A program made the translations under genes and the position numbers. DNA of 37,906 bases from a virus: positions 1-37,906 of IMG/VR virus record IMGVR_UViG_3300021963_004741; one strand, given 5' to 3'. Shown in pieces: positions 4,901 to 19,838 of the stretch. The notes under the pieces are model-generated. The model made no database searches, was not told where the DNA came from, and worked only from the letters and a program-made list of their open reading frames with translations. Numbering within the stretch: the first letter of the stretch is position 1; each line of letters starts with the position of its first letter.

Positions 4901-7424
4901 CGTTATATATTTGTTTGTTGATTCTACCATACTCTCTCATTAAAATTCCAGCAACTGAATGAGCTTGATTTTCTATTGGAGAACCATCTCTACCATCATT
5001 TACCGAATCTTTTATGAATCCCATTTCATCTTGCTTTCTATGAACCATTTCATGTGCGATTGTTCGTAGGATATCGGCAGTTAATCTTCCTTCAGTTGCA
5101 ACATATATTGTTTTATCGGTTGGATTGTATCCACCTAAAGATGATTTAATATTACCATATTCTTTTCCACCAACTAATGTTACATTTGGAGTTTCTTGTA
5201 ATTTTAATCTTTTAGTTGCAAATTCTACAAAGTGTTCTATATTTTGTTTTTTAGAATCAGATAAATCTTCTTTCATCAAATCCATAGCTGCATTTTTTGC
5301 ATCCGATTCTGGCTTATTCTTTTTATATGATTCAATAGATGCCAACATTTGTTCATCAGTCATCTTAAATGTTCCCATTCTTTCACCTATTTTTTTCATT
5401 AGGTTCATCATCATAGTTTGTGGATTTGGTTGTACCGAATCCATACTTTCTGCAATTCCACCCGTTACAATACTCAACAATGCACCACCGACACCTGCTT
5501 TACTTGCTCCTGCGCCTACAGATTCAAAGGCAACATGTTTAATCATATCTTTACCTAAATGTCCTGCAAAATATCCACCTCCCGATGTAAACGCATGGGT
5601 TGCACCATGCATTGCCGCATGTCCAACACTTTGTCCCGCGAATGCACTTACATTTGCAGTTGTACCAAGTCCTTTAGCTGCTAAAGCTCCTACTCCAGCT
5701 CCAGCAACTGCCATACTAGCACACATAACAGCGGCATCCATTGCTGTTCCTTTTATTCCTTTTAATTGTTCACTTCTTTCGTACCAAGACTTTTTTGCTA
5801 ATGCTAATTCTCTCGGAGATAAATCATCTCTGAATGCAGGTTCTTTTTGTGTTTTTGGTCTACCTCTCCAATCGGTTGCCTGTACTGGATTCCCATCTTC
5901 ATCATGCACATCATGTCCGTGATGGTCTTTTTTATAAACAGGCACCTCTTTCATTTTATCTCCCCATCCATCTTCAGCTGAACCACTTTTAGTGTAATCA
6001 GACCAGTGTACCTTTTTACCAGTTTCTTCATCTGTTATTGTACCCAATTTACCTGAAGTTGCTAATGAGTACATCCCCTTACCAAATTCTTTATATTGGT
6101 CTACTTTATGTGCAATTACATGTCCAACCGCTTTACCTACTTTATGTAGTTTATCACCAGTCCAATCATTTAATTTTTCATACCAACCCTTTCTCATTTC
6201 GGATTCAGGGTTGTTAGCTTCATCAGCTGCTTTCTTATCATCATCGGATAAATCAGCCATAGCATGATTTAATTTCTCCTTTACTTCAGCAGATTTCTTT
6301 TCATCAGAACTCATTTCTGCAGAAGATTTTAATTCTGCTCCACTTAATTTTTGTTCAGGAGGAGGCGCTTGTTTTCCAGCATCTTCTCCACTTTTTTTAT
6401 CTGCGGTTGGTTCTTCTTTCTTTTTATCTACTTTACCTTGAGCAGTTGCTCCTTTATTAACAGGTTGACCTGGTTGAGATGGTTTGGGTTCGTTAGCAGG
6501 TGCATCGCTTGGTCCTTTAGCCATATGCTTTTGCTTTTCAGCAGCTGCTTCAGCGGGAGTCAATGCTCTTAACTTACCATTTTCAGACTTATGAGTAGCA
6601 GGTTGTCCTTTATCTTTACCATAATATCCTCCACCTAAATGGACTAATCCCATCTTTTCTCCTTCAGATTCTTCTTTGAAATATGTTCGAGTAAATTCTT
6701 CAAACATTTCTTCCATTGCGGCCCTACCTATTAATTCTGAAATAGGGTCATACATATCTTCTTTATTATACCAATCCGGCTCATTTGAAGGATGTTCCGT
6801 TTCATGTCTTGTAGGATGTGGTTCTGGTCTTAATTTATCAGTTGGATTAGTATTTACCGATTCGTTTAATTTACCTGTTATCATTTTAAAAATTTCTTTA
6901 TCAAATTTTGGATATGCTTTTAAAAATCCCTTTTCTTTATCTTTACCATTTTTTCCTAACCAATTACGAACATCTGTTCCACTAATTGGATTTGATTCGG
7001 CTGGTACGGGATAAACATAACCAATTTCTTCATAACCATATCCAGCTTTACCATTATATGGTTTAAAATATTTACCTGCTAATCTATTTGCATCTTTCTC
7101 TCCAACTGCTGCAATATATTGAGTTGTTTTACCATCAAATTTAGAAAGTATCTCTTTTGGAGCATATGGATTACGAACTTGAACTATTTTGTCTGTTGGA
7201 ATACCAAACATTGTATTCATTATCTTAACCTTCTCATTAAAATTAAATGGTGATTTTGGACCAGAAGTGTCGTTGGACGTGCCAATATAAACATTGTTTT
7301 TACCAAATTTTTGACATAGTTTTAAATAAGATAAATAATGTCCTTTATGAAATGGTTGAAAACGACCGGAGTATACTACTACGGTCTTTGTTACTTTCGG
7401 CTTATCTACTTCGTTCAAATTCAT
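1974..7424 (-). CDS. 1816-residue multidomain virion-type protein: NMNAT-like domain, HExxH motif, ligase-like KxDG domain
   Basis: Residues 14-165 look like a nucleotidyltransferase of the NMNAT/cytidylyltransferase class: GRFQPFHKGH with HxGH at 26-29, and ISGTDVR at 147-153. Residues 200-420 are charged and low-complexity (Lys, Glu, Pro, Ala). Residues 560-665 are Gly/Ala-rich and hydrophobic, as in membrane-interacting ejected proteins. HEMVH at 791-795 is an HExxH zinc-peptidase-like motif. The C-terminal third carries KTDG at 1460-1463, a following RxxxKG segment, an acidic EVIWP segment, EGIVF at 1787-1791 and KLTG at 1799-1802. These match the order of motifs I, Ia/III, IV and V in DNA/RNA ligase nucleotidyltransferases. 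Phage proteins of this size near packaging genes are often structural or injected. Motifs are seen; the activities are inferred. The long stretches between domains are unassigned. Confidence 0.75.
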   Translation of the reverse strand: MNLNEVDKPKVTKTVVVYSGRFQPFHKGHYLSYLKLCQKFGKNNVYIGTSNDTSGPKSPFNFNEKVKIMNTMFGIPTDKIVQVRNPYAPKEILSKFDGKTTQYIAAVGEKDANRLAGKYFKPYNGKAGYGYEEIGYVYPVPAESNPISGTDVRNWLGKNGKDKEKGFLKAYPKFDKEIFKMITGKLNESVNTNPTDKLRPEPHPTRHETEHPSNEPDWYNKEDMYDPISELIGRAAMEEMFEEFTRTYFKEESEGEKMGLVHLGGGYYGKDKGQPATHKSENGKLRALTPAEAAAEKQKHMAKGPSDAPANEPKPSQPGQPVNKGATAQGKVDKKKEEPTADKKSGEDAGKQAPPPEQKLSGAELKSSAEMSSDEKKSAEVKEKLNHAMADLSDDDKKAADEANNPESEMRKGWYEKLNDWTGDKLHKVGKAVGHVIAHKVDQYKEFGKGMYSLATSGKLGTITDEETGKKVHWSDYTKSGSAEDGWGDKMKEVPVYKKDHHGHDVHDEDGNPVQATDWRGRPKTQKEPAFRDDLSPRELALAKKSWYERSEQLKGIKGTAMDAAVMCASMAVAGAGVGALAAKGLGTTANVSAFAGQSVGHAAMHGATHAFTSGGGYFAGHLGKDMIKHVAFESVGAGASKAGVGGALLSIVTGGIAESMDSVQPNPQTMMMNLMKKIGERMGTFKMTDEQMLASIESYKKNKPESDAKNAAMDLMKEDLSDSKKQNIEHFVEFATKRLKLQETPNVTLVGGKEYGNIKSSLGGYNPTDKTIYVATEGRLTADILRTIAHEMVHRKQDEMGFIKDSVNDGRDGSPIENQAHSVAGILMREYGRINKQIYNEDVNVDVDKGDEVLMGKFKNKRVTVKDIGTDDHGMPTINGKQATTFRIPRGENVNEVGSNDWRFKAIMKMWDKASSFGRKKIGVAVCKNPNANRNDVARELRNFGYRDITSVGDQLGLDEKKNLNEKLSQSNLNSVEKYADRELSPADIEFSNHFFDRVNDTRNGKEISEPELTGFFKRLARHKKEFLSFLDKYNQIVVKDDRSDINIPFVKMANKVIAKTVMRKDDFKTSSPTLVNELTQGLFAGKIKIGGQPVEIEVELLGADNKTKEFLTKVIHIDKKYQSKLPIGSEFRIPARIFRMPGGGWHKIKSSAFKETINEALKWETEVFDKCLHGEVPLSLNIVKKLVDPIVAKSLHVTDIDNLSKVAALEGTKKSISTFNKTTKTGKIAQGKGLWTKGGVIVSMTGTVLAQSIHDLWTYPDKQGRRWIEPGAMFGNPNREMHQVYNFAPELKPYKEKYQKEYFDGTISNAEKAEFIKKYFEAAEKFMLSKKKEFVDRYSNANTLYYESDWNEVVLTNIKIEKILIIPSDEDEKEIQKVKQKYHNVEIAKNEADIENFINNNGGKVLHESVTQSKEILSEGGAYGHMSHPFDDMDLTFGDLKKIIKGALTGNLELTREKTDGQALAISWKNGRLIAARNKGHLQNAGANAMGIEDVASKFAGRGGLTDAYNFAMRDLSAAISSLSEAQRKKIFDEGKCFMNLEVIWPTSVNVIPYGQALLVFHNTTCYDEKGVAIGANQGAATMLAGMIKQVNADVQSKYTIQGPPVTELPKKEELSSKQTKYLTQLQKLQFQFQLSDKDGVSEYHQAWWEDFVNKSGVKLQKLEKEALVRRWAFYDKSFRLNTIADKDAQKWAIEHDKVNVAKQQKDNVRQFEEIFLGVGADVLSFMGSVLTVNPDAAVRNMKDRLKSTAEKVRGSGDPSKIAKLKMELSRLASIGGKDKIVPNEGIVFVYKGNTYKLTGTFAPLNQILGIFYE

Positions 7425-7450: not shown

Positions 7451-7570
7451 TTAGAAGTTTTTATAAACAAATGGGTCTCTTTTTTTAAGTTCTTCCAATT
7501 TTTTCTTAATTCTTTTTTTCATTTTGTAACTATCGTACAAATTTTTCAGAAATTTAAATGGATTTATCAT
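7451..7570 (-). CDS. 39-residue basic small protein
   Basis: This short gene starts with ATG at 7570, inside an ATGA overlap with the stop of the preceding glycosyltransferase-like gene, so it is probably translated by coupling. The product is very basic: a Lys/Arg-rich central helix (KKRIKKKLEELKKRDPF) ends in an RDPFVYKN-type tail. The overlap and composition argue that it is real, and similar short basic proteins are common in T4-like marine phages. Function is unknown. It lies between the glycan island and the large multidomain virion-type gene. Confidence 0.65.
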   Translation of the reverse strand: MINPFKFLKNLYDSYKMKKRIKKKLEELKKRDPFVYKNF

Positions 7571-9003
7571 AATATTTCTATTTTTGGTTTACTAATTAAG
7601 TTTTCTTTGTTTGTTAATGCCAGAAAATGATTATGGTCTAATGATATTTTTTTACTACCAATATCATACATTAATTGTTTATTGTGTTTAATTCTGGGTA
7701 TTAATTCGTTTACAATATTTTTAAGTTCTTCTATTGAATAACTATTTAATCTTTTTATTTCATCAAAAATCATATTAAGTCTAATATTTGGGTCTTTTTG
7801 ACTATCATATGATTCATTTATAAATGGATGAAATGTTTTAAATCCCATTTGTTTTAAAAATTTCAAAGAATTGACAGGTCCTACCAATATAAATGGATGC
7901 CCATGTACAATTGGTTTCCAAATTTTTTCAGAAAGATATCCACTTTCTTCGTAAAATAAAGTTTCTGATACAATTGATATTAATGAATTTAAATATACTT
8001 CTTTATTTTCAAATCCATAACCCCACACATTATCTAAATTTGCATAATCTACTATTCTTGGTGATGTTGCTTTTATATAATTTATAAATTCATCGGATTC
8101 TTCTTTTCCCAATCTATTTAATAATTCATCCATTCCACCTTCTGTAAATAATGTAGCATCATAACTAATTAAATTATCTTCTATCAGATTTTCTTTCCAT
8201 AAGAAGTGTAATACATTAGCTCTATGCATCCGTATTCTTCTATTTAAATTATTAAATTTATATTTTTTATTTTCAAAATTAGAAACTTCATCCATTTCTA
8301 AAAAATTATATGTAGTTTGCTTTTGTTCTTCAGCCCAAAAACTATAATCATCTTGATTTAATTTTTTAAAATACTCTTCTGCTTTTGAATTTAATGACCA
8401 ACAAAAATGAATCAATTTTGGCATAGATGAACCCCAAATTGGTCTCATCATTCTTTCTAAATTAAAATCATTATGGCATATAATAATTTTATCAGGTGGT
8501 AAATTTAAAGAATTTAAACATTTATATAATTTTATTAATTGATATTTTGAAATATTACCATCAATTACATAATTAATAACCAATTTTCCTCCCCAATCTC
8601 TAATCTCTTCTAGTGTTTTCGATGGTATAAATTTTGAAAATGGAATATTATGAGAAGTTTTATTTAATCCTAAAAAATTTGCAATATCACCATATGGTTC
8701 TATTAAATAATACCAATCATAGCAATTACCACGCTCTCTTTCTCTTATAATACTATGAACAGAACGAGTTTCTATTCCAAAATAACCTGGTTTACCTTCT
8801 TCATCATTTAATTGTACATTAAATCTTGCATTAAAAACAGACCAAATGGCTTTATGCTTTTCATTAAAATAATTTTCAGATGAATCAAAATTCCAATCAG
8901 TATGATATGCAAAATCCAAATATCTTGGATTTAAACAATTTGGTACTTCATTATATGGAAATAATATATCATACCCAACTACTATTTTTTGTTTACTATA
9001 CAT
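7567..9003 (-). CDS. Putative glycosyltransferase with GT10 (fucosyltransferase)-like C-terminal region, paralogue b
   Basis: The 478-residue protein has an unassigned N-terminal half. The C-terminal region contains YLSEKIWKPIVHGHPFIL (SEK at about 358-360), then GFKTF, NESYD and a long helix. This arrangement resembles the donor-binding C-terminal half of GT10 fucosyltransferase-like proteins, in which a conserved SEK..(K)P....PF block binds the nucleotide sugar. The same block occurs in the gene at 14077-15411, so the two are paralogues. It follows the TPP E1 beta-like gene with an 8-base overlap and is followed by the 39-residue gene with an ATGA overlap. The sugar it uses cannot be read from sequence. 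Confidence 0.6.
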   Translation of the reverse strand: MYSKQKIVVGYDILFPYNEVPNCLNPRYLDFAYHTDWNFDSSENYFNEKHKAIWSVFNARFNVQLNDEEGKPGYFGIETRSVHSIIRERERGNCYDWYYLIEPYGDIANFLGLNKTSHNIPFSKFIPSKTLEEIRDWGGKLVINYVIDGNISKYQLIKLYKCLNSLNLPPDKIIICHNDFNLERMMRPIWGSSMPKLIHFCWSLNSKAEEYFKKLNQDDYSFWAEEQKQTTYNFLEMDEVSNFENKKYKFNNLNRRIRMHRANVLHFLWKENLIEDNLISYDATLFTEGGMDELLNRLGKEESDEFINYIKATSPRIVDYANLDNVWGYGFENKEVYLNSLISIVSETLFYEESGYLSEKIWKPIVHGHPFILVGPVNSLKFLKQMGFKTFHPFINESYDSQKDPNIRLNMIFDEIKRLNSYSIEELKNIVNELIPRIKHNKQLMYDIGSKKISLDHNHFLALTNKENLISKPKIEIL

Positions 9004-9535
9004 AATATAATTCAGGATATTCTACTAATAGATGTATTCCACCATTTTCGGTAGCGTATTTATAAGCTAAATCTATATCGGATGGAGTTTTTAAATCGTG
9101 AAATTCAATATTTTTACAAATTGATTTAAATTCATCAAAATAATTACCTTTGTGTTGATGACCAGGGTCAAGTGGTTTATCTGAACCCTTACCCAATCTA
9201 ATAATCATATTCATTCGTTTACCAGTCATTGTTTCAAATTTATCAACATGGTTTACCAATTGATTTGTTGCTGATATGATAAAATCCCATCTAGGATAAA
9301 ATGTAACTACTCTATTACCAGCCATTGCTAATCCTAAACTCATTCCCATTTGAGTTTCTTCCATAACGGGAACTTCAATCATTTTTTCCTTTAAAACACC
9401 ATCTAATGTAGTACTCATTGGATTTCCAGCATAAACTATTTGTTGTCCAATAAATATTGTATCATTTAACTTTGCTAATGTAGTCATTGCATTAGTTAAT
9501 GCATCTTTATATGGAGAATATTGCGGTGTACTCAT
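8996..9535 (-). CDS. TPP-dependent dehydrogenase/transketolase E1 beta-like subunit (pyrimidine-binding domain)
   Basis: The 179-residue protein matches only the pyrimidine-binding (PYR) domain of E1 beta. VPVMEETQMGMSLGLAMAG places the catalytic-type Glu at E59 or E60, and the DFIISATNQLVNH segment corresponds to the dF...a.dqi.n helix of E1 beta. The C-terminal transketolase domain normally present in E1 beta is missing, so the protein is about half the usual length. Its partner is probably the E1 alpha-like protein at 15383-16012, since active sites form between PYR and PP domains. The SGNH gene before it overlaps by ATGA, and the GT10-like gene after it overlaps by 8 bases. With sugar genes all round, a role in making a branched or keto sugar is more likely than central metabolism; that is inference. 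Confidence 0.75.
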   Translation of the reverse strand: MSTPQYSPYKDALTNAMTTLAKLNDTIFIGQQIVYAGNPMSTTLDGVLKEKMIEVPVMEETQMGMSLGLAMAGNRVVTFYPRWDFIISATNQLVNHVDKFETMTGKRMNMIIRLGKGSDKPLDPGHQHKGNYFDEFKSICKNIEFHDLKTPSDIDLAYKYATENGGIHLLVEYPELYYV

Positions 9536-10374
9536 AATATATTTTTTGTATTTTTAATATTTTCTATAATGCTATTTGCTATAATTTTATGACATTCTAA
9601 TGAAGAATGGTTATCATTTGGTGGAGTATTTCCAAAATATTTTTTATTTTTAGAAATTTCGAATTCACTTTCAAATTCCATCAAATCGATTATACTTTTA
9701 AAATTTAAATTGTTGTAATTTAATTTTATAAGTCTATTTGATAAAAATGTATCATTTGTTATGTGTGGGAAATATTCATTTGTCCAACATAATAATTTTG
9801 TTTTTATTTTAAATTTACTTTCATAAAATAATAATTTATTTTTAATATATGTGATATTTGAAATAATAAATGAATTATACCAATCATCAAATGATATATT
9901 TGATTTTTTTAACCATTTATAAAAAATATCAAAAGTAGCACTATCTGATGAATTGTATACACCATTTTCAAAAATTAATTCTTTATCATCATAAATTATT
10001 TTATATGGATTTCTCATAGATTGACTAGTTTGAAATATAATAAAATTAAAATCCATTGGTTTAAATTGTTCTGGGTATAAAAATCTATTGATATCTCCCT
10101 CACCTTTTAATCCTAATGTATTTTCTATAAATTCAATAGATTGATAATCAGTACCTCCATTATATTTTTTAACTACTTCAAATGTATTAAATTCATTTGC
10201 AACCAATCTTGCAAATCTAGTTGATTCCATATATTTTATTTGTGCAGGGGTTATATTTGATAAATTAAAATTATTAAATTTAATATCGGATAAATTTTTG
10301 TTATCTAAATCCGAATAGAAATATAACCCCTGTCCCCAAGTAAAGCTATCACCTGCAAATATAATACCACGCAT
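9532..10374 (-). CDS. SGNH/GDSL-like hydrolase or acyltransferase-like protein (copy 1)
   Basis: The 280-residue protein opens with a short strand followed by GDSFTWGQG (G8-D9-S10), the block I nucleophile motif of SGNH hydrolases. Near the C-terminus it has NDNHSS, with D254 and H256 as candidate acid and base. These enzymes remove or transfer acyl groups, often acetyl groups on sugars. There is no signal peptide, so it should act in the cytoplasm. It overlaps the E1 beta-like gene by ATGA. Three further SGNH-like proteins lie in the same island. The middle of the protein is Asn/Lys/Ile-rich and diverged, so the substrate cannot be guessed. Confidence 0.7.
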   Translation of the reverse strand: MRGIIFAGDSFTWGQGLYFYSDLDNKNLSDIKFNNFNLSNITPAQIKYMESTRFARLVANEFNTFEVVKKYNGGTDYQSIEFIENTLGLKGEGDINRFLYPEQFKPMDFNFIIFQTSQSMRNPYKIIYDDKELIFENGVYNSSDSATFDIFYKWLKKSNISFDDWYNSFIISNITYIKNKLLFYESKFKIKTKLLCWTNEYFPHITNDTFLSNRLIKLNYNNLNFKSIIDLMEFESEFEISKNKKYFGNTPPNDNHSSLECHKIIANSIIENIKNTKNIL

Positions 10375-10382
10375 AAATTTAA

Positions 10383-11375
10383 TTATGGTCTTGAATCAGG
10401 GTTATATAAATGTTTATTTGCTTTATACCACTCAATTGTTTCTTTCAAAGCTTCTTTTAAGTTTCTCTTTGGTTTCCAACCTAAATCATTAATCTTTTTA
10501 GAAGATAATAAACGGATAGGAATCATTGGTGCTTTATTATTTACATATTCAATTGGGTTTGTATTATTATCCAATTCTTTAATTGTTGCAAGCGTTTCGT
10601 TGACTGTAAATCCTTCACCATAACATACATTGAAAATATCATATGTATCGTTATTTTCTGCTACAAAAATAAAACCATCTGCCATATCTTCAACATGCAA
10701 TAAATCTCTTACTTCCGTACCATCACCCCAAACTGGGATTGGATTTAAACCATCTGCTACTTTACGGATGTTTGCCGGAGTAACATGGCACTTTTCAAAA
10801 TCAAATTTATCATTTGGTCCAAATGCGTTAGAAGGTCTAACAATCAAACATTGCATTGGTTCGTGAATCTGATTAGAAAAGAAATCACATAACATTTCAC
10901 CATATCTCTTCATACCACCAACTGCTTTATAGACAGGCAATAATGGAGTTGCATGAACATTTATATCTTCAGTACAAAATTCAGTTCCCATATCTGGGTA
11001 TGTTGTATTTGATGAAATAAATAAAAATTTACGAACTTTGTTTTTCCAACTTTGTTCCATTAGATTCGCATTCATTTCCACATTTGGAGTAACATGTAAT
11101 AATGGATTAAATTTTGTATCCAATGCATTTGATGTATTAGCTGCACAATGAAATACTACATCAACATCTTTACTGATTAATTCACAAAATTCTGCTGTTT
11201 GTAAATCGCCTTTGATATGTTCTACTTCGGATGTACCTTCGAAATCGTTTCTCAAATCTCTACTAAATGATGTTGAACGAAGATTTCTATATCCTTTCTC
11301 ATATAGTAATCGTAATAAATGTGAACCAATAAATCCACTTGCCCCTGTAACTAAAATTTTGTCTGTTTTTTTCAT
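10383..11375 (-). CDS. NAD-dependent sugar epimerase/dehydratase, extended SDR (copy 1)
   Basis: The Rossmann glycine motif GASGFIG lies at residues 11-17 from the chosen ATG at 11375. An in-frame ATG at 11411 would add 12 residues but overlap the upstream gene by 35 bases; the later start puts the motif in the usual place and sits 2 bases past the upstream stop. RPSNAFGP and WGDGTEVRDLLHVEDMA are typical of NDP-sugar epimerases. At the YxxxK site the Lys (K156) is kept, but the residue four before it is Val rather than Tyr, so either the alignment differs or the chemistry is altered. It acts on an NDP-sugar of unknown identity. Confidence 0.8.
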   Translation of the reverse strand: MKKTDKILVTGASGFIGSHLLRLLYEKGYRNLRSTSFSRDLRNDFEGTSEVEHIKGDLQTAEFCELISKDVDVVFHCAANTSNALDTKFNPLLHVTPNVEMNANLMEQSWKNKVRKFLFISSNTTYPDMGTEFCTEDINVHATPLLPVYKAVGGMKRYGEMLCDFFSNQIHEPMQCLIVRPSNAFGPNDKFDFEKCHVTPANIRKVADGLNPIPVWGDGTEVRDLLHVEDMADGFIFVAENNDTYDIFNVCYGEGFTVNETLATIKELDNNTNPIEYVNNKAPMIPIRLLSSKKINDLGWKPKRNLKEALKETIEWYKANKHLYNPDSRP

Positions 11376-11376
11376 A

Positions 11377-11973
11377 TTATTGTTTTTTATGTATAAATGC
11401 ACATATTGCATATCGTTCTCCTTCGATTACTTTAGTAACCTCATGCTCAACTGAATTTTGAGTATAATCTATTATTACAACTCTACCATATTCGGGTATT
11501 ATTTTAATTTCATTTTTTAAAATTAAATTTCCACCATTTTGTTCATTATAATCCTTATTAAGATATATTAGTATGCCCGCAATTCTATTTAGGTCTTTAC
11601 CATCAATATGTGGTACTATAAAACACCCCTCATTATATAGTGTTATGGAATCTAAAATTTGAATATCTGTATTATCATAGTATTTTGAAAAAACACTTTT
11701 TAATAAATTTGAAACTTCGTTTGATTTATCGTATGTAGCGAACCATATTTGCGCTAAATTATCTTTGGTTAATATTTCATTTTTTACTTTATTTAAATTT
11801 GAAAAACTATCATATGGCACATAGTGGTCAGATTTAATATCATTATACGAAACTTTTAAAGTATGAAAGTTATCTTTAGATATTTTATCATAAATCAATG
11901 AAAGAAGATTTAATTCTTCTTCATTTGTTATATCAAATGATGCATATCCTTTTTCTAAAATTTCGTTTTTCAT
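11377..11973 (-). CDS. 2OG-Fe(II) oxygenase (prolyl-4-hydroxylase-like), island copy
   Basis: The protein has 198 residues. The iron-binding triad can be seen as H122-x-D124 (VPHIDG) and H177 (SVEHEV), with R187 placed to bind 2-oxoglutarate. The strand IAGILIYLNKDYNEQNGGNLIL is typical of the double-stranded beta helix. Family members hydroxylate proteins or small molecules. It is the first gene behind a strong promoter-like sequence at 11980-12011, so it probably leads an operon with the SDR, SGNH, E1 beta-like and GT10-like genes. A second oxygenase lies at 36994-37680. Confidence 0.8.
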   Translation of the reverse strand: MKNEILEKGYASFDITNEEELNLLSLIYDKISKDNFHTLKVSYNDIKSDHYVPYDSFSNLNKVKNEILTKDNLAQIWFATYDKSNEVSNLLKSVFSKYYDNTDIQILDSITLYNEGCFIVPHIDGKDLNRIAGILIYLNKDYNEQNGGNLILKNEIKIIPEYGRVVIIDYTQNSVEHEVTKVIEGERYAICAFIHKKQ

Positions 11974-11979
11974 AATTTA

Positions 11980-12011
11980 CAAAGATAAGAAAAATATTTC
12001 ATATTACCAAA
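11980..12011 (-). promoter_or_regulatory. Bacteroidetes-type promoter before the 2OG oxygenase operon
   Basis: On the minus strand TTTG (12008-12011) is followed by 20 bases and then TATCTTTG (11980-11987), a perfect match to the Bacteroidetes -33/-7 consensus. The TTTG abuts the stop codon of the SGNH gene at 12012. The ATG at 11973 lies only six bases after the -7 box, so the transcript would be leaderless or nearly so. Confidence 0.65.
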
Positions 12012-13103
12012 TTAAATTAAATTCCATTTAGAAATAACTTCTTTAATAAATTTATTATACATCCTAGCAGAAACATGTCCCAATGGATTTCGCCATTCTT
12101 CATAATTATCTATCATTTCTTGGATAGATTGAAAAGCTATTCCATTTTTAGATTGCTCCATAAACAATACATTATTATAACCATTTGGAATATTTTTATC
12201 ATCTATGTTAAAATTTCTAATAGCCCATTCTATTACACCACCATATCTATGTAAACCTTCTTCTTCGTAGAACCAAAATTTATCCCAATCTATCATTTCA
12301 AAATAATACTTTAAATATGGGTTATCGAAATACTTCATATCATCATTCCAAGTGTTTGGAATATATTTATTTACCAAAATTTCTTTTAACTGATTGTTGG
12401 ATGTATTTGAAGTTCTAAAATCAGGAAAACCACCGCCATTCAAACAATTTAATACATATGTATCCGAAAAATTATTGGCTATATTAAACATTTTATATTT
12501 TATACCATTTGATTTTAAATACATTTGCAATAGATTAATAGTTTCTAAAAAAACCAATAATCTTTCCTCATACGAATGTAAATGGCCTAAATATAATTCT
12601 GTAAATTTTTTCATTGGATTATTAATATGGTCCATACCAAATCCACCTGATAAAAAATAATATCCGTTTTCTCCTATTTCATTTTTCTCTTCTACAAAAT
12701 CATTGATATGGGCATAATCATCATTCCATCTTCTACGATGTTGCTCTAATTTTAATTTTGGATTTTCTAATTGCTTAGATGGTGATACAAAAAATGCATT
12801 TCTATAAAATGAAGACCATTGTACTATAACCGATATATCATCCGTAGATATACCTTGTTTTTTTAATTTTTCTATTTTATAAATTATAGTTCTAGCTATT
12901 ACCTGATTATCATTTGTAACATTTGCTACATTGATAACATTTATATCAGGATACATTATTTGAATTTGATGCGGATAATAATAAAATTCACGCTCCGAAT
13001 CAATATCTCTACCATCTTCGGATATAATATTATTATCCGTTACATCTATGTTAATTCTACCGGCTCTAGTAAATGAACATCCACATGTTACCAAATGCTT
13101 CAT
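12012..13103 (-). CDS. SGNH-like protein, large variant (copy 2)
   Basis: The 363-residue protein starts LVTCGCSFTRAG, an SGNH block I in which the usual GDS is GCS (G8-C9-S10). NVANVTNDNQ may serve as the block II/III region, and GHVSARMYNKFIKE near the C-terminus supplies a His in the expected place but without a D-x-H pair. It is longer than the other copies because of an Asn/Tyr-rich insertion in the middle. It may be a diverged acyl-hydrolase or acyltransferase. It overlaps the upstream SDR stop by one base (TAATG), and its own stop borders the promoter of the next operon. Confidence 0.55.
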   Translation of the reverse strand: MKHLVTCGCSFTRAGRINIDVTDNNIISEDGRDIDSEREFYYYPHQIQIMYPDINVINVANVTNDNQVIARTIIYKIEKLKKQGISTDDISVIVQWSSFYRNAFFVSPSKQLENPKLKLEQHRRRWNDDYAHINDFVEEKNEIGENGYYFLSGGFGMDHINNPMKKFTELYLGHLHSYEERLLVFLETINLLQMYLKSNGIKYKMFNIANNFSDTYVLNCLNGGGFPDFRTSNTSNNQLKEILVNKYIPNTWNDDMKYFDNPYLKYYFEMIDWDKFWFYEEEGLHRYGGVIEWAIRNFNIDDKNIPNGYNNVLFMEQSKNGIAFQSIQEMIDNYEEWRNPLGHVSARMYNKFIKEVISKWNLI

Positions 13104-14104
13104 TATAATCTACTTTTATATTCTAAAATTGATTTTGTTAATCCTTCCTTTAAAGATGTTTGTGGTAAAATTCCGTATTGTTTTTGTTTTTTAGAACCTA
13201 AACATCTGATTGGGTCTCCGTTTGTTTTTGTAGAATCCCAAACTATATTTTTAGTTTTACCTGTGATTTCAGTATAACATTCAACAATTGTTTCAATTGT
13301 ATCTTTGATTGATACTGCTTCTGCACATCCAAAGTTAATAATATCTCTAACTTCTTTCTTAACTACATCAATCGATGCTTGTGCCACATCATCACCAAAT
13401 ACAAAATCTCTTTTAGATGAACCATCACCCCAACAAACCATATCATCCCCTTCTACATTAAATAACTTCCAAATGTTAGAAGAGATTACAGTTGCATCTT
13501 GTGCAAAGTTATCGTTTGTTCCGTAGATGTTAGATGGTCTAATTACAGTCCAATTATCCCAACCATACTGAACTCTCAATGAATCCAAAGTAAGTTCTCC
13601 CATTCTCTTTGTCCAACCTGGATGCCAATCTAAACGAGATGGAGTTGATGCCCAAGTTTCTTCTTGTGACCAAATATCTTCTTCGTTCATTACATCCGCT
13701 GGCTTATAAACTCCAACCGATGAAAGATACACAAACCAATCAACTTTTGCATCAAACGATGCTTTAATCATATTGGTATTAAACATTAACATTGGAAATA
13801 AATAATCCGCAGGTTGTGTTGATGAACGAGCAGGTGAACCTTTAACTCCTGCAATATGTAATACAATATTAATATCATTCATTGTAAATAATTCTTCACA
13901 ATGTGATAAATAAGTTAAATCAGTTTTTACTAATGTCAATTTCCCTTGCGGATATTGTTTTTGTAAAAATTCTAAATTTTCACTAAATTTAAGGTCTACT
14001 GCATATACCTTATCAGCACCTTCTTCTAAACATTTTTTAACTGCTGGCAATCCTACTAATCCATTTGCCCCTGTAACTAAAATCTTTTTTCCTTTGAATT
14101 CCAT
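13103..14104 (-). CDS. NAD-dependent sugar epimerase/dehydratase, extended SDR (copy 2)
   Basis: The N-terminal GANGLVG motif (residues 12-18) and the later VIRPSNIYG and WGDGSSKRDFVFGDDVA segments mark an extended SDR acting on an NDP-sugar, in the same broad group as GDP-fucose synthase and UDP-glucose 4-epimerase. The catalytic YxxxK is again non-standard: HPGWTKRMGE keeps K166, but residue 162 is Pro instead of Tyr. The gene overlaps the end of the preceding GT10-like gene by 28 bases and shares one base with the following SGNH gene. It resembles SDR copy 1 more than SDR copy 3. Confidence 0.8.
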   Translation of the reverse strand: MEFKGKKILVTGANGLVGLPAVKKCLEEGADKVYAVDLKFSENLEFLQKQYPQGKLTLVKTDLTYLSHCEELFTMNDINIVLHIAGVKGSPARSSTQPADYLFPMLMFNTNMIKASFDAKVDWFVYLSSVGVYKPADVMNEEDIWSQEETWASTPSRLDWHPGWTKRMGELTLDSLRVQYGWDNWTVIRPSNIYGTNDNFAQDATVISSNIWKLFNVEGDDMVCWGDGSSKRDFVFGDDVAQASIDVVKKEVRDIINFGCAEAVSIKDTIETIVECYTEITGKTKNIVWDSTKTNGDPIRCLGSKKQKQYGILPQTSLKEGLTKSILEYKSRL

Positions 14105-15411
14105 ATTTTTTTTATTTTTTGTAAACTATTTTCAAATACATTATATTTTGTAAATGATAATAAATGATTCCTATTGTATATACATATATCTTTGCAAGAT
14201 AAAAATAACTCATTCATATCGTCAATTGACATTTTTGATAACCTCAATATTTCATCCGATGCTTTCTTAAATCGTTTATGCGAATCTTCTTCATCATCAT
14301 ATGATTCATCGATTATATGCGAAAATGTTTTGAATCCCAATCGTTTCAATTCAGCCAATTGACCATTTGATGCTAATATTATAAATGGTTGTAAATTGAT
14401 TATTGGATGGAATGTTTTTTCTGATATAAAAACTACATTGTTTGTAAATGTAGTTTCAGTTACGATATTGATTATCGTATCTTGGTAATTTTTTTTAAAA
14501 TAAGTCGTTGATGTTGGAAAACTTGACATAGTACTTTTATCTTTTAAAAATATTGTGTCAATTTCTATTGGTAATTTTGATGTAAATTTTGTATGTATAT
14601 CATCGTATGAATCAAAATCCGATTGACTCATACATTCAATAGCCTGCGTTTGTTCTTCTGGTAGATTTAAAAATGTAAAATATCCTAAATCCCATAGATT
14701 ATATTTTTCCAAAAGTAATCCCAAAGAATATCGGTGAGGTCTATTTACTTGCCTATTTAACGATAAAAAATGTTTTGTTTTTTTAAAATTAAAAACATCA
14801 TAATCAACTATTTCATTTTGATATTCAAATTCCCACCCTTCCACTACTTTGTTTTTTAAAAATGTTTTCAAAGATTTTGCTGAATTGGATAAGAAAAAAT
14901 GGTCAGATATATAATTTATCTTAGATGTATTTTTTATGTTATTTGCACTTGTTAATATAAAAAAATTAGATATATCAATATCATTTTCATTGCACATATT
15001 TTCAATAAAAATATTAAATGTAGTATCGTATAGTGGTTCTCCAAACCAATTAAATATTACAATTAATTTGCCTTCTTTTAATTTTAATAATGCTTCTTTT
15101 GAAATATTTTTAATAAAATTATCACCATAATATACAGGTGGAGTGTACGATTCGCATAAATACGCCAATACATCATCATTATTTATATCAGTAGTACTTA
15201 ATTTAGATGTTTCTACATATCCTCTATATACAGTTCCTAATAATTTTTCAGTATTTCTTTCCATTTCAAAATGATTCCAATGATAATCATCGGAACACTT
15301 TGAATTATAATTTGAAATTTCATCAATAGATAAATTATTTGGCAATATTCTACCAAATTTATCTACATTTTCAAAATAAAATTTAAAAGGCAATCCATTT
15401 TCCAGTTCCAT
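14077..15411 (-). CDS. Putative glycosyltransferase with GT10-like C-terminal region, paralogue a
   Basis: The 444-residue protein is a paralogue of the one at 7567-9003. Near the C-terminus it has FISEKTFHPIINLQPFIIL (SEK at 330-332), followed by GFKTF, DESYDDEEDSHKRF and a long helix, the same succession as in its paralogue. This suggests a GT10-like nucleotide-sugar-binding half, while the N-terminal half is unassigned. It follows the E1 alpha-like gene with a 29-base overlap and itself overlaps SDR copy 2 by 28 bases. These unusually long overlaps point to tight coupling. Confidence 0.6.
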   Translation of the reverse strand: MELENGLPFKFYFENVDKFGRILPNNLSIDEISNYNSKCSDDYHWNHFEMERNTEKLLGTVYRGYVETSKLSTTDINNDDVLAYLCESYTPPVYYGDNFIKNISKEALLKLKEGKLIVIFNWFGEPLYDTTFNIFIENMCNENDIDISNFFILTSANNIKNTSKINYISDHFFLSNSAKSLKTFLKNKVVEGWEFEYQNEIVDYDVFNFKKTKHFLSLNRQVNRPHRYSLGLLLEKYNLWDLGYFTFLNLPEEQTQAIECMSQSDFDSYDDIHTKFTSKLPIEIDTIFLKDKSTMSSFPTSTTYFKKNYQDTIINIVTETTFTNNVVFISEKTFHPIINLQPFIILASNGQLAELKRLGFKTFSHIIDESYDDEEDSHKRFKKASDEILRLSKMSIDDMNELFLSCKDICIYNRNHLLSFTKYNVFENSLQKIKKIWNSKEKRF

Positions 15412-16012
15412 AATGCGGAAATTTTGATTTATATTTATAATATATTACATCGGATGGTACTTCTCTTTTTTTATTCCAAGTTGCTTCCGTTGGTGTGTAG
15501 GTTGAAACATCATTATCTTCGACTACAAAATAAAGTGGTAAATCAAAGTTTCTTGCGTATTTATGAACCTCATAGAATATACCACTTTCAAAAGACATAT
15601 CTCCTATGAAACACCAAACTTTCTCATCACTTCCTTTTTCTTTTAATCCCATTGCTACACCTAATGCAATAGATAAAGTTCCACCTACAATCGCAGATGA
15701 GTAAAACTTTTCATCAAAATTACATAATGTTATAGATTTTCCTTTAAGAATTTCCTCCTCAATCCAAACAGGACACACTTCTTTTAATAAAGCATGATAG
15801 TGAGAACGCCATGTACTGAATACCCAATCATTTTTAGATATTCGTTTAAATATCTCAATTAATTGCTCTTCATTTCCATTTGATAAATGAATAGGTCCTC
15901 TAATTTTTGCATCTTCCCAATGCTTTACTATAAGATTTTCAAAATCAATTAATGTTTGAGCAGTTTGTTCAATATCTCTTACAATTGGATATTGATTTAA
16001 ATTTTCTATCAT
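15383..16012 (-). CDS. TPP-dependent dehydrogenase E1 alpha-like subunit (pyrophosphate-binding domain)
   Basis: The 209-residue protein shows the TPP-binding pattern GDMSFE...EDN: G137-D138 and, 27 residues after M139, N167. This is the GDG-x(24-27)-N motif with Met for the third Gly. WRSHYHALLKE and SAIVGGTLSIALGVAMGLK match conserved E1 alpha segments. It is shorter than ordinary E1 alpha (300 or more residues) but ends with a clean PHYGTGK-type tail, so it seems complete. The partner is probably the E1 beta-like protein about 6 kb downstream. The SGNH gene before it overlaps by ATGA. The substrate is unknown; a keto- or branched-sugar reaction is suggested only by the neighbourhood. Confidence 0.78.
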   Translation of the reverse strand: MIENLNQYPIVRDIEQTAQTLIDFENLIVKHWEDAKIRGPIHLSNGNEEQLIEIFKRISKNDWVFSTWRSHYHALLKEVCPVWIEEEILKGKSITLCNFDEKFYSSAIVGGTLSIALGVAMGLKEKGSDEKVWCFIGDMSFESGIFYEVHKYARNFDLPLYFVVEDNDVSTYTPTEATWNKKREVPSDVIYYKYKSKFPHYGTGKWIAF

Positions 16013-16767
16013 ATAACTTTTGTTTTTAAATTTTTTATTCTTTGATAAATTATATCTGCTACAACATTGTGTCCTTCCAATGAAAGATGTAAATCAGGAA
16101 CAGGACAATTTAGAACATCTATTAATCTTAATTTGTTTTTTTGTGCATATGAACCCAAATTATCACCATCAAATTTAATAAAATGTTCTGATTCTGCAAA
16201 TTGAGTATAATCACCATCGTATGATAACCATAGTGGATACACTCCTTTCCTTTTTAACCAAACAGTATATAATTCTATATTTTTTTCAATATTTCTTAAT
16301 GCAATATCTTCATTATATACAAATGATAGATAATTTTTATAATATTCATATAAATGCGAATATTCTTTTTTATTTTCAAATGGTGGTTCTGAAAAATTTA
16401 ATTTATTTAATTTTTTAAATTCTTTTGTATAATCGTAGTAAACATGTTGCCTGGAAAACATCGTAATCTGTCCAATGAATAATACATTATTAACTACATT
16501 TTTATTTTTAAAATAATTGTATGTTTTATCAAAAATTAAATCGTTTGATGACATAGATTCCGATAAGTTTATATAATCACATTTTAATAACTTAGCTAAA
16601 TAAGCTACATAATTATTATTTGCTTTATATTTTAATGGTAATTCATTTGGATATGAATAATCTACATCATCATTTATATTATTTAGGAATTTATAAATAT
16701 CAGGGTTATCTAAACCACCTCCTTCTGTAAAACTACATCCTACCGAAACTATTAAATCGTATTTCAT
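16009..16767 (-). CDS. SGNH/GDSL-like protein (copy 3)
   Basis: The 252-residue protein has block I VSVGCSFTEGGG with G10-C11-S12 and a C-terminal PDLHLSLEGH with D225-x-H227, the acid-base pair. It is a plausible complete SGNH hydrolase fold without a signal peptide. It overlaps both neighbours by ATGA: the SGNH copy 4 gene upstream and the E1 alpha-like gene downstream. Together with copy 4 it may act on acyl groups of the same glycan. Confidence 0.7.
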   Translation of the reverse strand: MKYDLIVSVGCSFTEGGGLDNPDIYKFLNNINDDVDYSYPNELPLKYKANNNYVAYLAKLLKCDYINLSESMSSNDLIFDKTYNYFKNKNVVNNVLFIGQITMFSRQHVYYDYTKEFKKLNKLNFSEPPFENKKEYSHLYEYYKNYLSFVYNEDIALRNIEKNIELYTVWLKRKGVYPLWLSYDGDYTQFAESEHFIKFDGDNLGSYAQKNKLRLIDVLNCPVPDLHLSLEGHNVVADIIYQRIKNLKTKVI

Positions 16768-17597
16768 AATATATTTTGTGGTTTAATTCTTTTATTTATA
16801 TTTAATTTTTTTAAAATAAAATTAGTAAACCAAATATGCCCATTTTTTGATAAATGAAAATCATATATAGATTTATTACTATCATCCCATATAGTTAATT
16901 GTAATTTACGAAATATTGTCAACCAACCATAATCAAATGTATCTATGCCAGTATGAATATCATCATGCAAAGATAACTCATACATATCAGAATAATCATC
17001 AAATATATTAAATAATAGAGGTTTTTTATTTGGAATTTTATCAGTCCTAATTGATTCCAAATTCCAAAAAATTACATTTTTTACAATATTCATTTGATGT
17101 AAATATTTAACTATGTTTACTAAATTTACAACATTTCTTCTATAATAGTATGTAGATGGTATCATATATTTCATAAAATCCTTACTAGCATTAAATTCCA
17201 TCTCACTTATGGAATTTCCATCATACAATTCGAAATCATCATATACCATATCATATGTTATATCATCCATTTCATTTAAATAGTAAATATATCCATCAGA
17301 TACTTCTTTCGTTTGTTTCTTTTTTAAATAAAATGGAAATTCGTATCTAGTTATTGTACTACTTTGTATTATAACAATATCATCTTTATTAAAATTAGCT
17401 AAATTTTCAATTATTCTGAATAAAATTTTTTCGTTTGGTATACCATTTTGACTAAAATCTTTTAATTCGTATTTTAATTCATTGGATAATAATTTTGTCC
17501 ATTTATATTCTTTATCCGCATTAGAATATTGTGGTATTTCACCATTCATACCATGACCGGCTGTAAATGAATCACCAAATGTCCAAATTTTAGGCAT
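16764..17597 (-). CDS. SGNH/GDSL-like protein (copy 4)
   Basis: The 277-residue protein starts IWTFGDSFTAGHG, a textbook SGNH block I (G8-D9-S10), and ends with YDFHLSKNGH carrying D246-x-H248. It is the copy closest to classical SGNH hydrolases. The start shares one base with the RmlC stop (TAATG), and the end overlaps copy 3 by ATGA. Likely roles are O-acyl removal or transfer on a sugar in the cytoplasm. The substrate is not evident. Confidence 0.72.
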   Translation of the reverse strand: MPKIWTFGDSFTAGHGMNGEIPQYSNADKEYKWTKLLSNELKYELKDFSQNGIPNEKILFRIIENLANFNKDDIVIIQSSTITRYEFPFYLKKKQTKEVSDGYIYYLNEMDDITYDMVYDDFELYDGNSISEMEFNASKDFMKYMIPSTYYYRRNVVNLVNIVKYLHQMNIVKNVIFWNLESIRTDKIPNKKPLLFNIFDDYSDMYELSLHDDIHTGIDTFDYGWLTIFRKLQLTIWDDSNKSIYDFHLSKNGHIWFTNFILKKLNINKRIKPQNIL

Positions 17598-18133
17598 TAT
17601 CTATCTCTTTTTTGTAAAATTGGATTATTTGTTGGCCATTCCATTTGATATTCAGGGTCATTCCACTTAACAACACCTTGCTCATCTGCATCTACATATT
17701 TTCCATCATAAAATAAATTATAATGAAACATACAATCGGTTAATGCGTAATGTCCATTAGCAAATCCAGGTGGAACTATTACTTGCTGTCTATTATGTTC
17801 TGAAAGTATAAACGATTCCCATTCACCATAAGTAGGAGAATCGTTTCTCATATCCAAAACCACTAAATAAATATCTCCTACTGCCGCTTGAACTAATTTC
17901 CAAGTTTTATTATCCCAATGCAATCCTCTTAAAACACCTTTATATGATTTAGAGAATCTACCATGTACTGTAATATTTAATGGTAGTTTCATCATAACTG
18001 GATGCTCTTCGGTATGTAATGTAGTAAATATTTCACCTCTATATTCTCTATAAATTGATGGTGTATATATTTCTACTTCGTTTCCAAAAGTTTTTGATGG
18101 AGTAACTTCAAACTCTTTCCAATTTGAACTCAT
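17597..18133 (-). CDS. rfbC: dTDP-4-dehydrorhamnose 3,5-epimerase-like protein
   Basis: The 178-residue cupin-type protein carries GVLRGLHW (R69, H72), the RmlC segment with the catalytic base, then VPPGFANGHYAL (120-131) and a WNDPE tail motif. Length and motif order fit RmlC, which epimerises C3 and C5 of dTDP-4-keto-6-deoxyglucose. RmlA, RmlB and RmlD are not in this window apart from possible SDR candidates, so the precursor may come from the host or from genes outside it. It lies two bases after the SDR copy 3 gene, which probably works in the same pathway. Confidence 0.85.
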   Translation of the reverse strand: MSSNWKEFEVTPSKTFGNEVEIYTPSIYREYRGEIFTTLHTEEHPVMMKLPLNITVHGRFSKSYKGVLRGLHWDNKTWKLVQAAVGDIYLVVLDMRNDSPTYGEWESFILSEHNRQQVIVPPGFANGHYALTDCMFHYNLFYDGKYVDADEQGVVKWNDPEYQMEWPTNNPILQKRDR

Positions 18134-18135
18134 AA

Positions 18136-19101
18136 TTAAAAATTTTGTGCATATCCTAATGGAAATCCGTTTCTAAATTCAGAACCCATTTTTGGAACTA
18201 CCATTTGATATCCCATAATAAGTTGATTAATACCTCTATCCAAATCCCATTCTGGCAACCACCCAGTCGCTTCTATTTTAGCGTTTGATACGATGTAATC
18301 TCTTTTATCAGGGTCCTCATAAAAATCGTTGTATGATACCGCAAAATCCTTTACATGCGATTGTATCTTTTCTAATAATTCTTGCTTTGAAAGATTTGCA
18401 GAACTCAATCCAACATTAAATATTTCTCCTCTATATTTTTCATAATTTTCCAACATAAAAAGAAATGCAGATGCCACATCTTCTATATGAATGAAATTTC
18501 TTTTGAAATTCTTTTCAAATACAACAATATATTTATCGGTAATTGCTTTATAAGTAAAATCATTTACCAATAAATCAGTTCTCATTCTAGGTGATACACC
18601 AAACACAGTTGCTAAACGAAATGTAATAGCTGATGTATTTGCTCTTAAAAAGTTTTCAGCATCGCATTTAGTCTGACCATAAACTGAAATTGGAGTGAGT
18701 GGAGATTCTTCCGTACATTCGGTTTGCCCTACACCAATTCCATAACCACTATTTGTATTTGGGTATAAAATCTTCTTATCTTTTGCAAATCTCACAATAT
18801 TAAAGATTTGGTCAAAGTTAATTTCTTTTGCTAATTTAGGGTCAGATGCACAAGCGGGAAATCCTACGATAGCAGCTAAAGGAATAATAACTTCTGCATC
18901 ATTACAAAGTTGTTCTAATAGTGTTACATTACGAACATCTCCATAGATAAATTTAAACTTTGAATTTGATGTATATTGTAACAACGATGTTTGATTAAAT
19001 AACAACTTATCTAATACCACAACTTCATGCCCTGCATTTAACATTTTCCCAACAATAACCGAACCCAAATATCCTGCTCCTCCTGTAATTAATATTTTCA
19101 T
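18136..19101 (-). CDS. NAD-dependent sugar epimerase/dehydratase, extended SDR with canonical active site (copy 3)
   Basis: The 321-residue protein has GGAGYLG at residues 7-13 for NAD binding and the standard YGQTK active site (Y141, K145), unlike the other two SDRs of the island. FRLATVFGVSPRMR and RNFIHIEDVA match NDP-hexose epimerase/dehydratase or reductase types. It lies two bases after the LamG-like gene and two before rfbC, so they are co-transcribed. It could be the 4-ketoreductase or 4-epimerase partner of RmlC; the sequence does not decide between these. Confidence 0.85.
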   Translation of the reverse strand: MKILITGGAGYLGSVIVGKMLNAGHEVVVLDKLLFNQTSLLQYTSNSKFKFIYGDVRNVTLLEQLCNDAEVIIPLAAIVGFPACASDPKLAKEINFDQIFNIVRFAKDKKILYPNTNSGYGIGVGQTECTEESPLTPISVYGQTKCDAENFLRANTSAITFRLATVFGVSPRMRTDLLVNDFTYKAITDKYIVVFEKNFKRNFIHIEDVASAFLFMLENYEKYRGEIFNVGLSSANLSKQELLEKIQSHVKDFAVSYNDFYEDPDKRDYIVSNAKIEATGWLPEWDLDRGINQLIMGYQMVVPKMGSEFRNGFPLGYAQNF

Positions 19102-19103
19102 AT

Positions 19104-19838
19104 TTATAATTTTTCTAAATCCTTACAAAATTTCATTAAGTGATTATTATTTCCAGTCATATCCCAAAATTTATAATCAGTTTCATTTTTAAAATCAAAA
19201 CAACACATTAATCCCAATTCATTTTTAGTTAAGCATCGGAATCCATATTTGTTTTCTTTTACAAGAGAATCTATATTTTTTCTAAAATCGTTCACAGCTG
19301 AACCATCTAATTTTTTATTAGAAACAATAAAGAAATCAGTATAACATTCTTGTGCCCAACTAAAATCTCCTTTTGTATCGGCTGCTCCAATAAAATAAGG
19401 TGCATTTACATAATCTCTTAATTTACCTGGAAGTGTTTCCGAATAAATTAATTCATCATCTACCCAAAATTCATATGTATGCGTTTCTCCATCCCAATTT
19501 AATGTAAACAAATGTGGTTCATTCCAAAATTGTTCATCCTTATAAAAAATTATTTTATCAGCATATTTTTCTTCATCATCTTCTACATACCAAAAATTCA
19601 ACATTACCATATCAGGCTTTCTGTAAACAATGCCGGTATGCAATCCTCTTCTCATAAAAATTCCAGCCATCTCATCTATTTGAGAATCATCTTCGCTTTT
19701 CTTCCAAGTTCCACTTATAGTCCAACTTGATTCATTCATTACATAAAAAGCAGATGTATCAATTATACCATAAGCGTTATGAGGCCACCATGGTAAATCT
19801 GCTAATATTAATGGTTCTTTGTGTTTTACTTTATACAT
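19104..19838 (-). CDS. LamG/concanavalin A-like lectin domain protein
   Basis: The 244-residue protein has alternating strands with Trp/Tyr-rich turns (SWTISGTWKK, HLFTLNWDGETHTYEFWVDDELIY, PYFIGAAD), the pattern of a laminin-G/concanavalin A-like jelly roll. A C-terminal segment, GLMCCFDFKNETDYKFWDMTGNNNHL, resembles the end of LamG-like folds. A related sheet is fused to the two GT7-like enzymes at 21241-24068. No catalytic residues are evident. The gene shares one base with the radical SAM stop (TAATG) and precedes SDR copy 3, so it may bind the glycan under construction. Cytoplasmic as judged by the lack of a signal peptide. Confidence 0.6.
   Translation of the reverse strand: MYKVKHKEPLILADLPWWPHNAYGIIDTSAFYVMNESSWTISGTWKKSEDDSQIDEMAGIFMRRGLHTGIVYRKPDMVMLNFWYVEDDEEKYADKIIFYKDEQFWNEPHLFTLNWDGETHTYEFWVDDELIYSETLPGKLRDYVNAPYFIGAADTKGDFSWAQECYTDFFIVSNKKLDGSAVNDFRKNIDSLVKENKYGFRCLTKNELGLMCCFDFKNETDYKFWDMTGNNNHLMKFCKDLEKL

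Follow-up and report, generated by a model that had tools for sequence, protein, structure and literature searches.

Several pairs of E1-α/β-type proteins act in keto-sugar pathways leading to antibiotic sugars (the αKADH2 systems AviB1/AviB2, Pau11/Pau12, EvdU5/EvdS3 and KbDH-α/β). Most of these pairs are proposed to add a two-carbon unit from pyruvate to a sugar ketone, and KbDH-α/β has been tested in vitro. Pau11 and Pau12 are full-length proteins (325 and 345 aa) of a dTDP-hexose pathway. The yersiniose synthase YerE of bacterial O-antigen biosynthesis is likewise a TPP carboligase whose substrate is an NDP-4-keto sugar, but it is a single protein of the decarboxylase superfamily, with a domain order different from that of the phage pair described here. 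The E1 components of PDH and BCKDH, as well as acetoin:DCPIP oxidoreductase, share with the phage pair the PP/PYR folds and the catalytic Glu and His residues. Proteins of the same family as the phage pair are found in cyanophages S-SM2 and P-TIM68 (PHROG_34187, "transketolase central region-containing protein"), where both halves form one chain of 400 aa. On the sugar side, the first two enzymes of the GDP-heptose pathway of C. jejuni (Cj1427-Cj1430-Cj1428) are homologous to two proteins of the present locus; Cj1427 is a GDP-heptose C4-dehydrogenase, and the paper on this pathway does not mention a thiamine enzyme or branching (PMC10680097). In the open-access literature searched, neither phage nor heptose clusters were found to have been described before as containing a thiamine enzyme.

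The window analysed comprised 37,906 nt of viral DNA (IMG/VR record IMGVR_UViG_3300021963_004741, positions 1 to 37,906), and all the open reading frames named in the original prediction were found where it had placed them, on the minus strand. The E1-α-like half (15383..16012) encodes a PP domain of 209 aa and the E1-β-like half (8996..9535) only a PYR domain, of 179 aa. Their predicted separation of about 6 kb was measured as 5,847 bases, a gap containing the genes for a glycosyltransferase (GTa, 14077..15411), a GDP-fucose-synthase-like SDR (SDR2, 13103..14104), an SGNH-like protein with a GCSFT motif (SGNH2, 12012..13103), a 2OG-Fe(II) oxygenase (11377..11973; PF13640, 1e-12), a second GDP-fucose-synthase-like SDR (SDR1, 10383..11411) and another protein with SGNH-like motifs (SGNH1, 9532..10374). 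A megablast search of phage genomes with the 14 kb block returned no matches. Compared with the αKADH2 pairs, the phage pair is short (209/179 aa), lacks the third domain, is split by 5.8 kb and probably belongs to a GDP-heptose context, a distinction drawn from descriptions of these systems rather than from sequence alignment.

The α half matched Pfam E1_dh (7e-14), and the β half matched Transket_pyr at 2e-4, under the curated cut-off. Both halves aligned to successive parts of the single-chain phage family PHROG_34187 (405 aa), at positions 2-200 for α (2e-53) and 237-401 for β (1.5e-19). The Mg-TPP motif GDx...N is present in the α half (G137-D138...N167, with N or D at position 167 in relatives), which also carries the near-invariant residues H42, R69, H73 and H200. 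The β half possesses the catalytic residues E59 and H128 and the invariant R82 and F85; E59 aligns with the catalytic Glu of E1-β and is kept in 95 of 96 relatives. Across about 95 distant relatives, the conserved catalytic positions were H42, R69, D138 and H200 in α, and E59, R82 and H128 in β. As judged from these alignments, both halves are real and domain-minimal, with intact cofactor-binding and catalytic residues. Since α lacks the PYR Glu and β lacks the PP motif, neither half should work alone.

The best sequence matches of both halves were the E1 components of PDH and BCKDH. These matches, together with the abundance of SGNH-like proteins in the clusters, are consistent with an α-keto-acid decarboxylase or dehydrogenase that would supply an acyl group or aldehyde for sugar decoration, for instance via the SGNH proteins, without forming a C-C bond on the sugar. 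However, the curated NCBIfam E1 score cut-offs were not reached (81.7 bits versus 394, and 36.7 versus 321), no E2 or E3 genes were found among the scanned genes of the window, and the C-terminal domain of E1-β, which carries E2 binding, is missing. As minimal loci such as L029 also have no SGNH gene between the halves, this explanation appears quite improbable.

The truncations noted in the original prediction, namely the loss of the C-terminal domain from the E1-β-like half and the shortness of the E1-α-like half, were borne out by the alignments and by fold comparison. The structure modelled was that of the fused relative from cyanophage S-SM2, which combines α and β in one chain (AF2; pLDDT 91.6, pTM 0.92). 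Its nearest full-length fold match was transketolase (residues 14-477; 353 residues aligned, rmsd 3.5, Z 21). The β half of this model superposed on E1-β 1-176 with an rmsd of 1.6 (Z 22.7) and stops where the third domain would begin. The fused relative is therefore confidently modelled as PP and PYR domains in the transketolase arrangement, without the third domain.

Both halves were found in 67 independent but related groups of viral loci, with α first in 64 of them and at least 5 kb between the halves in 46. Where a partner half had seemed absent, it was located 10-12 kb away, one per relative, and the relatives checked each had a single α and a single β. Related phages thus do not carry the two genes unlinked and singly: both are present, linked and once each, a pairing that recurs in dozens of independent relatives and hence goes beyond chance. 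In 37 cellular loci, the halves were adjacent genes in 27 cases and a fused gene in seven. Such adjacent or fused relatives occur in SAR11, cyanobacteria, candidate phyla and archaea.

The frequent separation of the halves could suggest that they are functionally separate or degenerate, a distance of 5-11 kb marking the loss of the joint enzyme. The mirror-tree test points the same way, as α/β co-divergence was weak (r = 0.39) and did not exceed that seen with the other core genes. Against this stand the strict 1:1 presence of the genes, the invariant residues on either side of the presumed active site and the absence of the PYR Glu from α and of the PP motif from β, which make such a loss very unlikely. 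The 1:1 linked pairs of the relatives and their adjacency or fusion in cells instead uphold the earlier proposal of a heteromeric TPP enzyme of minimal size that takes part in a sugar pathway, and on this comparative basis the two proteins very probably form such a heteromer. In the phylogenetic tree, the phage clade (support 100/96) was sister to the adjacent pairs of SAR11, which indicates that the separation was derived within the phage lineage. Three phages with adjacent genes were considered as a possible ancestral state, but all three nest inside the split clade, so that rejoining or loss is likelier than ancestral adjacency.

It had also been predicted that an SGNH-TPP-GT10 triad occurs twice as a repeated unit, with the halves of the TPP enzyme sorted between the copies. 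The gene order of the window fits this description: SGNH3 (16009..16767; SGNH-like motifs GCSFTEGGGL and DxHxSxxGH), E1-α and GTa on one side, and SGNH1, E1-β and GTb (7567..9003), of the same distant family as GTa, on the other. The gene junctions within the two triads do overlap, but by 4, 29, 4 and 8 bases rather than by a few bases throughout. Single triads were present in 9 (α) and 12 (β) of the 67 viral groups, while both triads co-occurred in only two. GTa and GTb share 40% identity restricted to 106 C-terminal residues, and SGNH1 and SGNH3 are similar over only 29 residues, a resemblance too limited for a recent duplication. In minimal loci, moreover, the halves have no SGNH or GT gene between them, and a duplicated triad acting as a functional unit is accordingly highly improbable. 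As for the assignment of the glycosyltransferases as GT10-like, the predicted fold is GT-B and the nearest structure was an α1,3-fucosyltransferase (GT10, 2nzx; Z 12.8), but this was tied with T4 β-glucosyltransferase (Z 12.2), none of the 42 family members had a Pfam match, GT10 included, and a PDB profile search with the family gave one weak, unrelated match only, so that membership in GT10 is not established. By gene content across the groups, the constant part is a sugar core (SDR3, RmlC-like, E1-α, SDR2, SDR1 and E1-β), and the GT, SGNH (including SGNH4, 16764..17597, motifs GDSFTAG and HLSKNGH) and oxygenase genes are variable cargo.

Two conserved partners of the pair, SDR3 (18136..19101) and the RmlC-like protein (17597..18133), had been overlooked in the original prediction. 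SDR3 was 53.5% identical over 301 aa to the C. jejuni Cj1427-type GDP-D-glycero-D-manno-heptose C4-dehydrogenase (6vo6; E 1e-104, the next best match being at 5e-22). The RmlC-like protein, whose best solved relatives include GDP-4-keto-heptose C3/C5-epimerases, scored 144 bits against these epimerases compared to 87 against true RmlC. Both genes were present together in 58 of the 67 viral groups, some absences falling at contig edges. Given this affinity of SDR3 to Cj1427 and of the RmlC-like protein to epimerases of GDP-4-keto-heptose, the substrate is probably a GDP-4-keto-heptose, and the TPP pair likely works in this context. The phage E1-type pair thus sits inside a keto-sugar nucleotide gene set, as in AviB1/AviB2-like systems. 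SDR1 and SDR2, the GDP-fucose-synthase-like candidates for the C4-reductase step of such a pathway, have no clear orthology to Cj1428, and the catalytic Tyr aligns to Gly in SDR1 and to Pro in SDR2; in loci L143 and L144, neither was in the fetched locus, where SDR3, RmlC-like, E1-α and E1-β remain.

Concerning the supply of the sugar, to which GmhA, HddA and HddC contribute, an HddA-like heptose kinase adjoined E1-α/β in 10 of the 27 adjacent cellular loci and was encoded elsewhere in five of nine large phage records, in keeping with a heptose pathway, but a GmhA-like SIS protein was found in only one of the nine. No nucleotidyltransferase supply genes (PF00483, PF12804) scored above the cut-off in the phages (NTP_transferase, 0 of 9 records). 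Judging by these gene searches, GDP-heptose supply in the phages appears incomplete. Instead of SDR3 and RmlC-like, the fused cyanophage and cyanobacterial relatives have as neighbours a Zn-alcohol dehydrogenase and heptose-activation genes of the PfkB/cytidylyltransferase kind, suggesting that the chemistry may vary across the family. These neighbours, annotated phosphoheptose isomerases among them, the HddA-type kinases beside E1-α/β in SAR11 and other cells, and the transketolase fold would all suit a heteromer that extends an aldose phosphate by a C2 unit, ketol or acyl; the unusual ketose phosphate so formed would then undergo isomerisation, phosphorylation and activation to become a heptose-type sugar. 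In the family of the window, however, the constant partners work on a nucleotide-activated 4-keto-heptose rather than on sugar phosphates, and a GHMP kinase is missing in four of the nine large records with the TPP pair; such a transketolase-like chain builder is unlikely here.

The preferred reading, carboligation onto the GDP-linked keto-heptose, builds on what comparison established (homology, an intact active site, 1:1 pairing, cellular adjacency or fusion, and core composition). SDR3 would oxidise GDP-D-glycero-D-manno-heptose at C4 and the RmlC-like protein would epimerise the resulting 4-ketone. The two genes would encode a single heteromeric TPP enzyme, independent of E2 and without the third domain, to which α contributes the PP and β the PYR domain and which is assembled in trans with its active site at the α-β interface. 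This enzyme would most likely decarboxylate an α-keto acid, e.g. pyruvate, and attach the carbon unit of the acyl anion to the keto-sugar, so that a heptose with a two-carbon branch at C4 would result. By analogy with the known carboligases, this C2 branching is put forward tentatively; the full length of the known E1-type branching enzymes speaks against it. The GTs of the cluster would then attach the branched heptose, the SGNH and oxygenase genes would decorate it, and its destination may be a glycan of the host surface or of the virion. The split arose in the phage lineage, the gap now being filled by cargo genes. We give the whole chain, from heteromeric TPP enzyme and GDP-heptose pathway to C2 branching and glycan use, a probability of roughly 0.4. 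Its most specific form is more doubtful: a phage two-gene TPP carboligase without the third domain, its active-site halves encoded 5-11 kb apart and meeting in trans, that would set a C2 branch at C4 of GDP-4-keto-heptose and so yield a branched surface sugar with nine carbons, of a kind hitherto undescribed.

If correct, these results would mean that widespread aquatic phages encode a minimal TPP enzyme consisting of just the PP and PYR domains, and they offer GDP-4-keto-heptose as a testable substrate. They would also indicate that, within an operon, cargo genes can come to separate both halves of a single active site without either being lost. Should the branching hold true, the C2-branching TPP chemistry so far known from yersiniose-type O-antigens and antibiotic sugars would reach phages and heptoses, and phages may build unusual sugars, perhaps remodelling the surface glycans of their hosts.

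All the open reading frames (ORFs) named by the original prediction were found on the minus strand of the window, an IMG/VR virus record of 37,906 bases, in the order SDR3 (18136-19101), RmlC-like (17597-18133), SGNH4, SGNH3, E1-alpha (15383-16012), glycosyltransferase GTa (14077-15411), SDR2 (13103-14104), SGNH2, 2OG-oxygenase, SDR1 (10383-11411), SGNH1, E1-beta (8996-9535) and glycosyltransferase GTb (7567-9003). An 1816-aa ORF (1974-7424), which often immediately follows E1-beta in relatives, had a cytidylyltransferase-like domain at its N-terminus (PF01467, 8e-6) and, close to the C-terminus, a KxDG nucleotidyltransferase/ligase-like stretch. At 21241-24068 lay a pair of GT7-like paralogues, glycosyltransferases that both carry a fused LamG/concanavalin-like domain; a radical SAM protein with a twitch domain (19838-21238) adjoined them.

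The split, minimal TPP enzyme proposed for E1-alpha and E1-beta is real and conserved, as indicated by homology, pairing in relatives and the fold of a fused relative. In Pfam, the alpha half matched E1_dh and the beta half, weakly, Transket_pyr, while the two aligned to different parts of one phage family (PHROG_34187, 405 aa); in the cyanophages S-SM2 and P-TIM68, the annotated relatives carry both halves in one chain. Where a partner seemed absent, it was found 10-12 kb off, one copy each, and the sole contig without alpha was a 16-kb fragment. The AlphaFold2 model of the fused S-SM2 relative (pLDDT 91.6, pTM 0.92) aligned with transketolase 14-477 (VIA-align; 353 residues placed, Z about 21, rmsd 3.5), and its PYR half with E1-beta 1-176 (VIA-align; Z 22.7, rmsd 1.6); both catalytic domains are present in this model and the third is absent. 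Among about 95 cellular and fused relatives, alpha H42, R69, D138 and H200 and beta E59, R82, F85 and H128 were near-invariant. Alpha H42 and beta E59 aligned to E1 active-site residues, whose roles we take to be those general in E1 enzymes; R82, invariant in the family, was missing from the classical E1-beta in that alignment. Neither subunit has a complete active site by itself.

The relatives recovered in a single scan of GTDB genomes came from SAR11, Cyanobacteria, candidate phyla and archaea. The halves were adjacent in 27 of the 37 cellular loci scored, frequently with a 1-4 base overlap; seven loci had them fused and three had another arrangement. In a maximum likelihood tree of the alpha half, the phage clade (100/96) and the SAR11 pairs (100/93) were sister groups; fused forms were placed elsewhere, and the three adjacent-gene phages were nested inside split-gene phages, so that separation of the halves in the phage lineage is derived. 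Co-divergence adds no support, as alpha and beta distances correlated only weakly (r = 0.39). In archaea and other lineages (L168, L174, L176, L181, L187-L189, L197, L204), the pair often lay beside B12-binding and SPASM radical SAM genes, suggesting more sugar C-C chemistry. A contig binned to a Pelagibacterales MAG (L165) carried the phage-type split cluster at 81% identity; it is probably a phage contig, and its binning is a weak hint to the host.

The 160 related viral loci fetched were gene-called and, after merging overlapping or near-identical loci, formed 86 groups; the 67 with both TPP halves in one locus are the basis of the locus counts. Alpha was ahead of beta in 64, with a median gap of 5.7 kb (at least 5 kb in 46). 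The original prediction had also read the locus as two SGNH-TPP half-glycosyltransferase triads, whose internal junctions overlap by 4, 29, 4 and 8 bases. This reading fails: SGNH-alpha-GT occurred in 9 of the 67 groups, SGNH-beta-GT in 12 and both together in only 2. Duplication of a triad with the TPP halves sorted between the copies fails on these counts and on low similarity, and a recent duplication is ruled out since GTa and GTb aligned over 106 residues (40% identity) and the SGNH pair over only 29. The glycosyltransferase family had no Pfam match; its predicted model (pLDDT 83.8) had a GT-B fold, with GT10 fucosyltransferase the top comparison, tied with T4 beta-glucosyltransferase. 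Core genes were present in most groups (SDR1 63, SDR2 63, SDR3 62, RmlC-like 61), and minimal loci consisted of SDR3-RmlC-E1a-SDR2-SDR1-E1b (L029, L106) or, smaller still, SDR3-RmlC-E1a-E1b (L143, L144). GT, SGNH, oxygenase and radical SAM genes are variable cargo inserted among them. In a 735-kb uncultured phage the halves were reversed, with a radical SAM gene between beta and alpha (L164:6397-8615). A 245-kb viral record encoded a 1090-aa outer-membrane beta-barrel protein (L286:8286-11558; OMP_b-brl_4, 1e-52) with a carboxypeptidase-regulatory-like domain, which looks Bacteroidota-type.

SDR3 matched PDB 6vo6 (53.5% identity over 301 residues, E 1e-104; next best 5e-22), labelled a putative sugar-nucleotide epimerase/dehydratase in the PDB search and identified here as Cj1427, the Campylobacter jejuni dehydrogenase that acts on C4 of GDP-D-glycero-D-manno-heptose (PMC10680097). 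The RmlC-like protein was nearest to GDP-4-keto-heptose epimerases (144 bits versus 87 for RmlC), a second, independent support for the pathway indicated by SDR3; the TPP enzyme thus probably sits in a GDP-heptose pathway. An HddA-like heptose kinase lay beside the TPP genes in 10 of the 27 adjacent cellular loci, and heptose-activation genes flanked fused relatives; both favour transketolase-like chain building by the pair, the main rival to the C2 carboligation proposed below. GHMP kinases occurred elsewhere in five of nine large phage records, and the one scored matched the HddA model best (335 bits, under the curated cut-off of 600). SDR1 and SDR2 resembled GDP-fucose synthase and kept the active-site Lys. 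Their ordinary C4 reduction is uncertain because the catalytic Tyr is replaced by Gly (SDR1) and Pro (SDR2), replacements conserved throughout the phage family; non-canonical chemistry or a non-catalytic role may apply.

YerE adds a C2 unit to CDP-4-keto-3,6-dideoxyglucose, for O-antigen. Two-component E1-type alphaKADH2 enzymes (AviB1/AviB2, Pau11/Pau12, EvdU5/EvdS3, KbDH-alpha/beta) are known or proposed to transfer C2 from pyruvate onto keto-sugars (PMC4425429, PMC10338323, PMC4753412, PMC12247030). Like these, the phage pair lies in a predicted keto-sugar-nucleotide gene set: the core enzymes would produce a nucleotide 4-ketose, and the smallest core ends in the TPP pair, SDR1 and SDR2 being absent from the fetched locus. 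From this analogy we infer, on well-motivated grounds, that the pair would catalyse C2 carboligation onto a GDP-4-keto-heptose. Within the E1-type alpha/beta TPP enzymes, it is apparently a variant not studied before.
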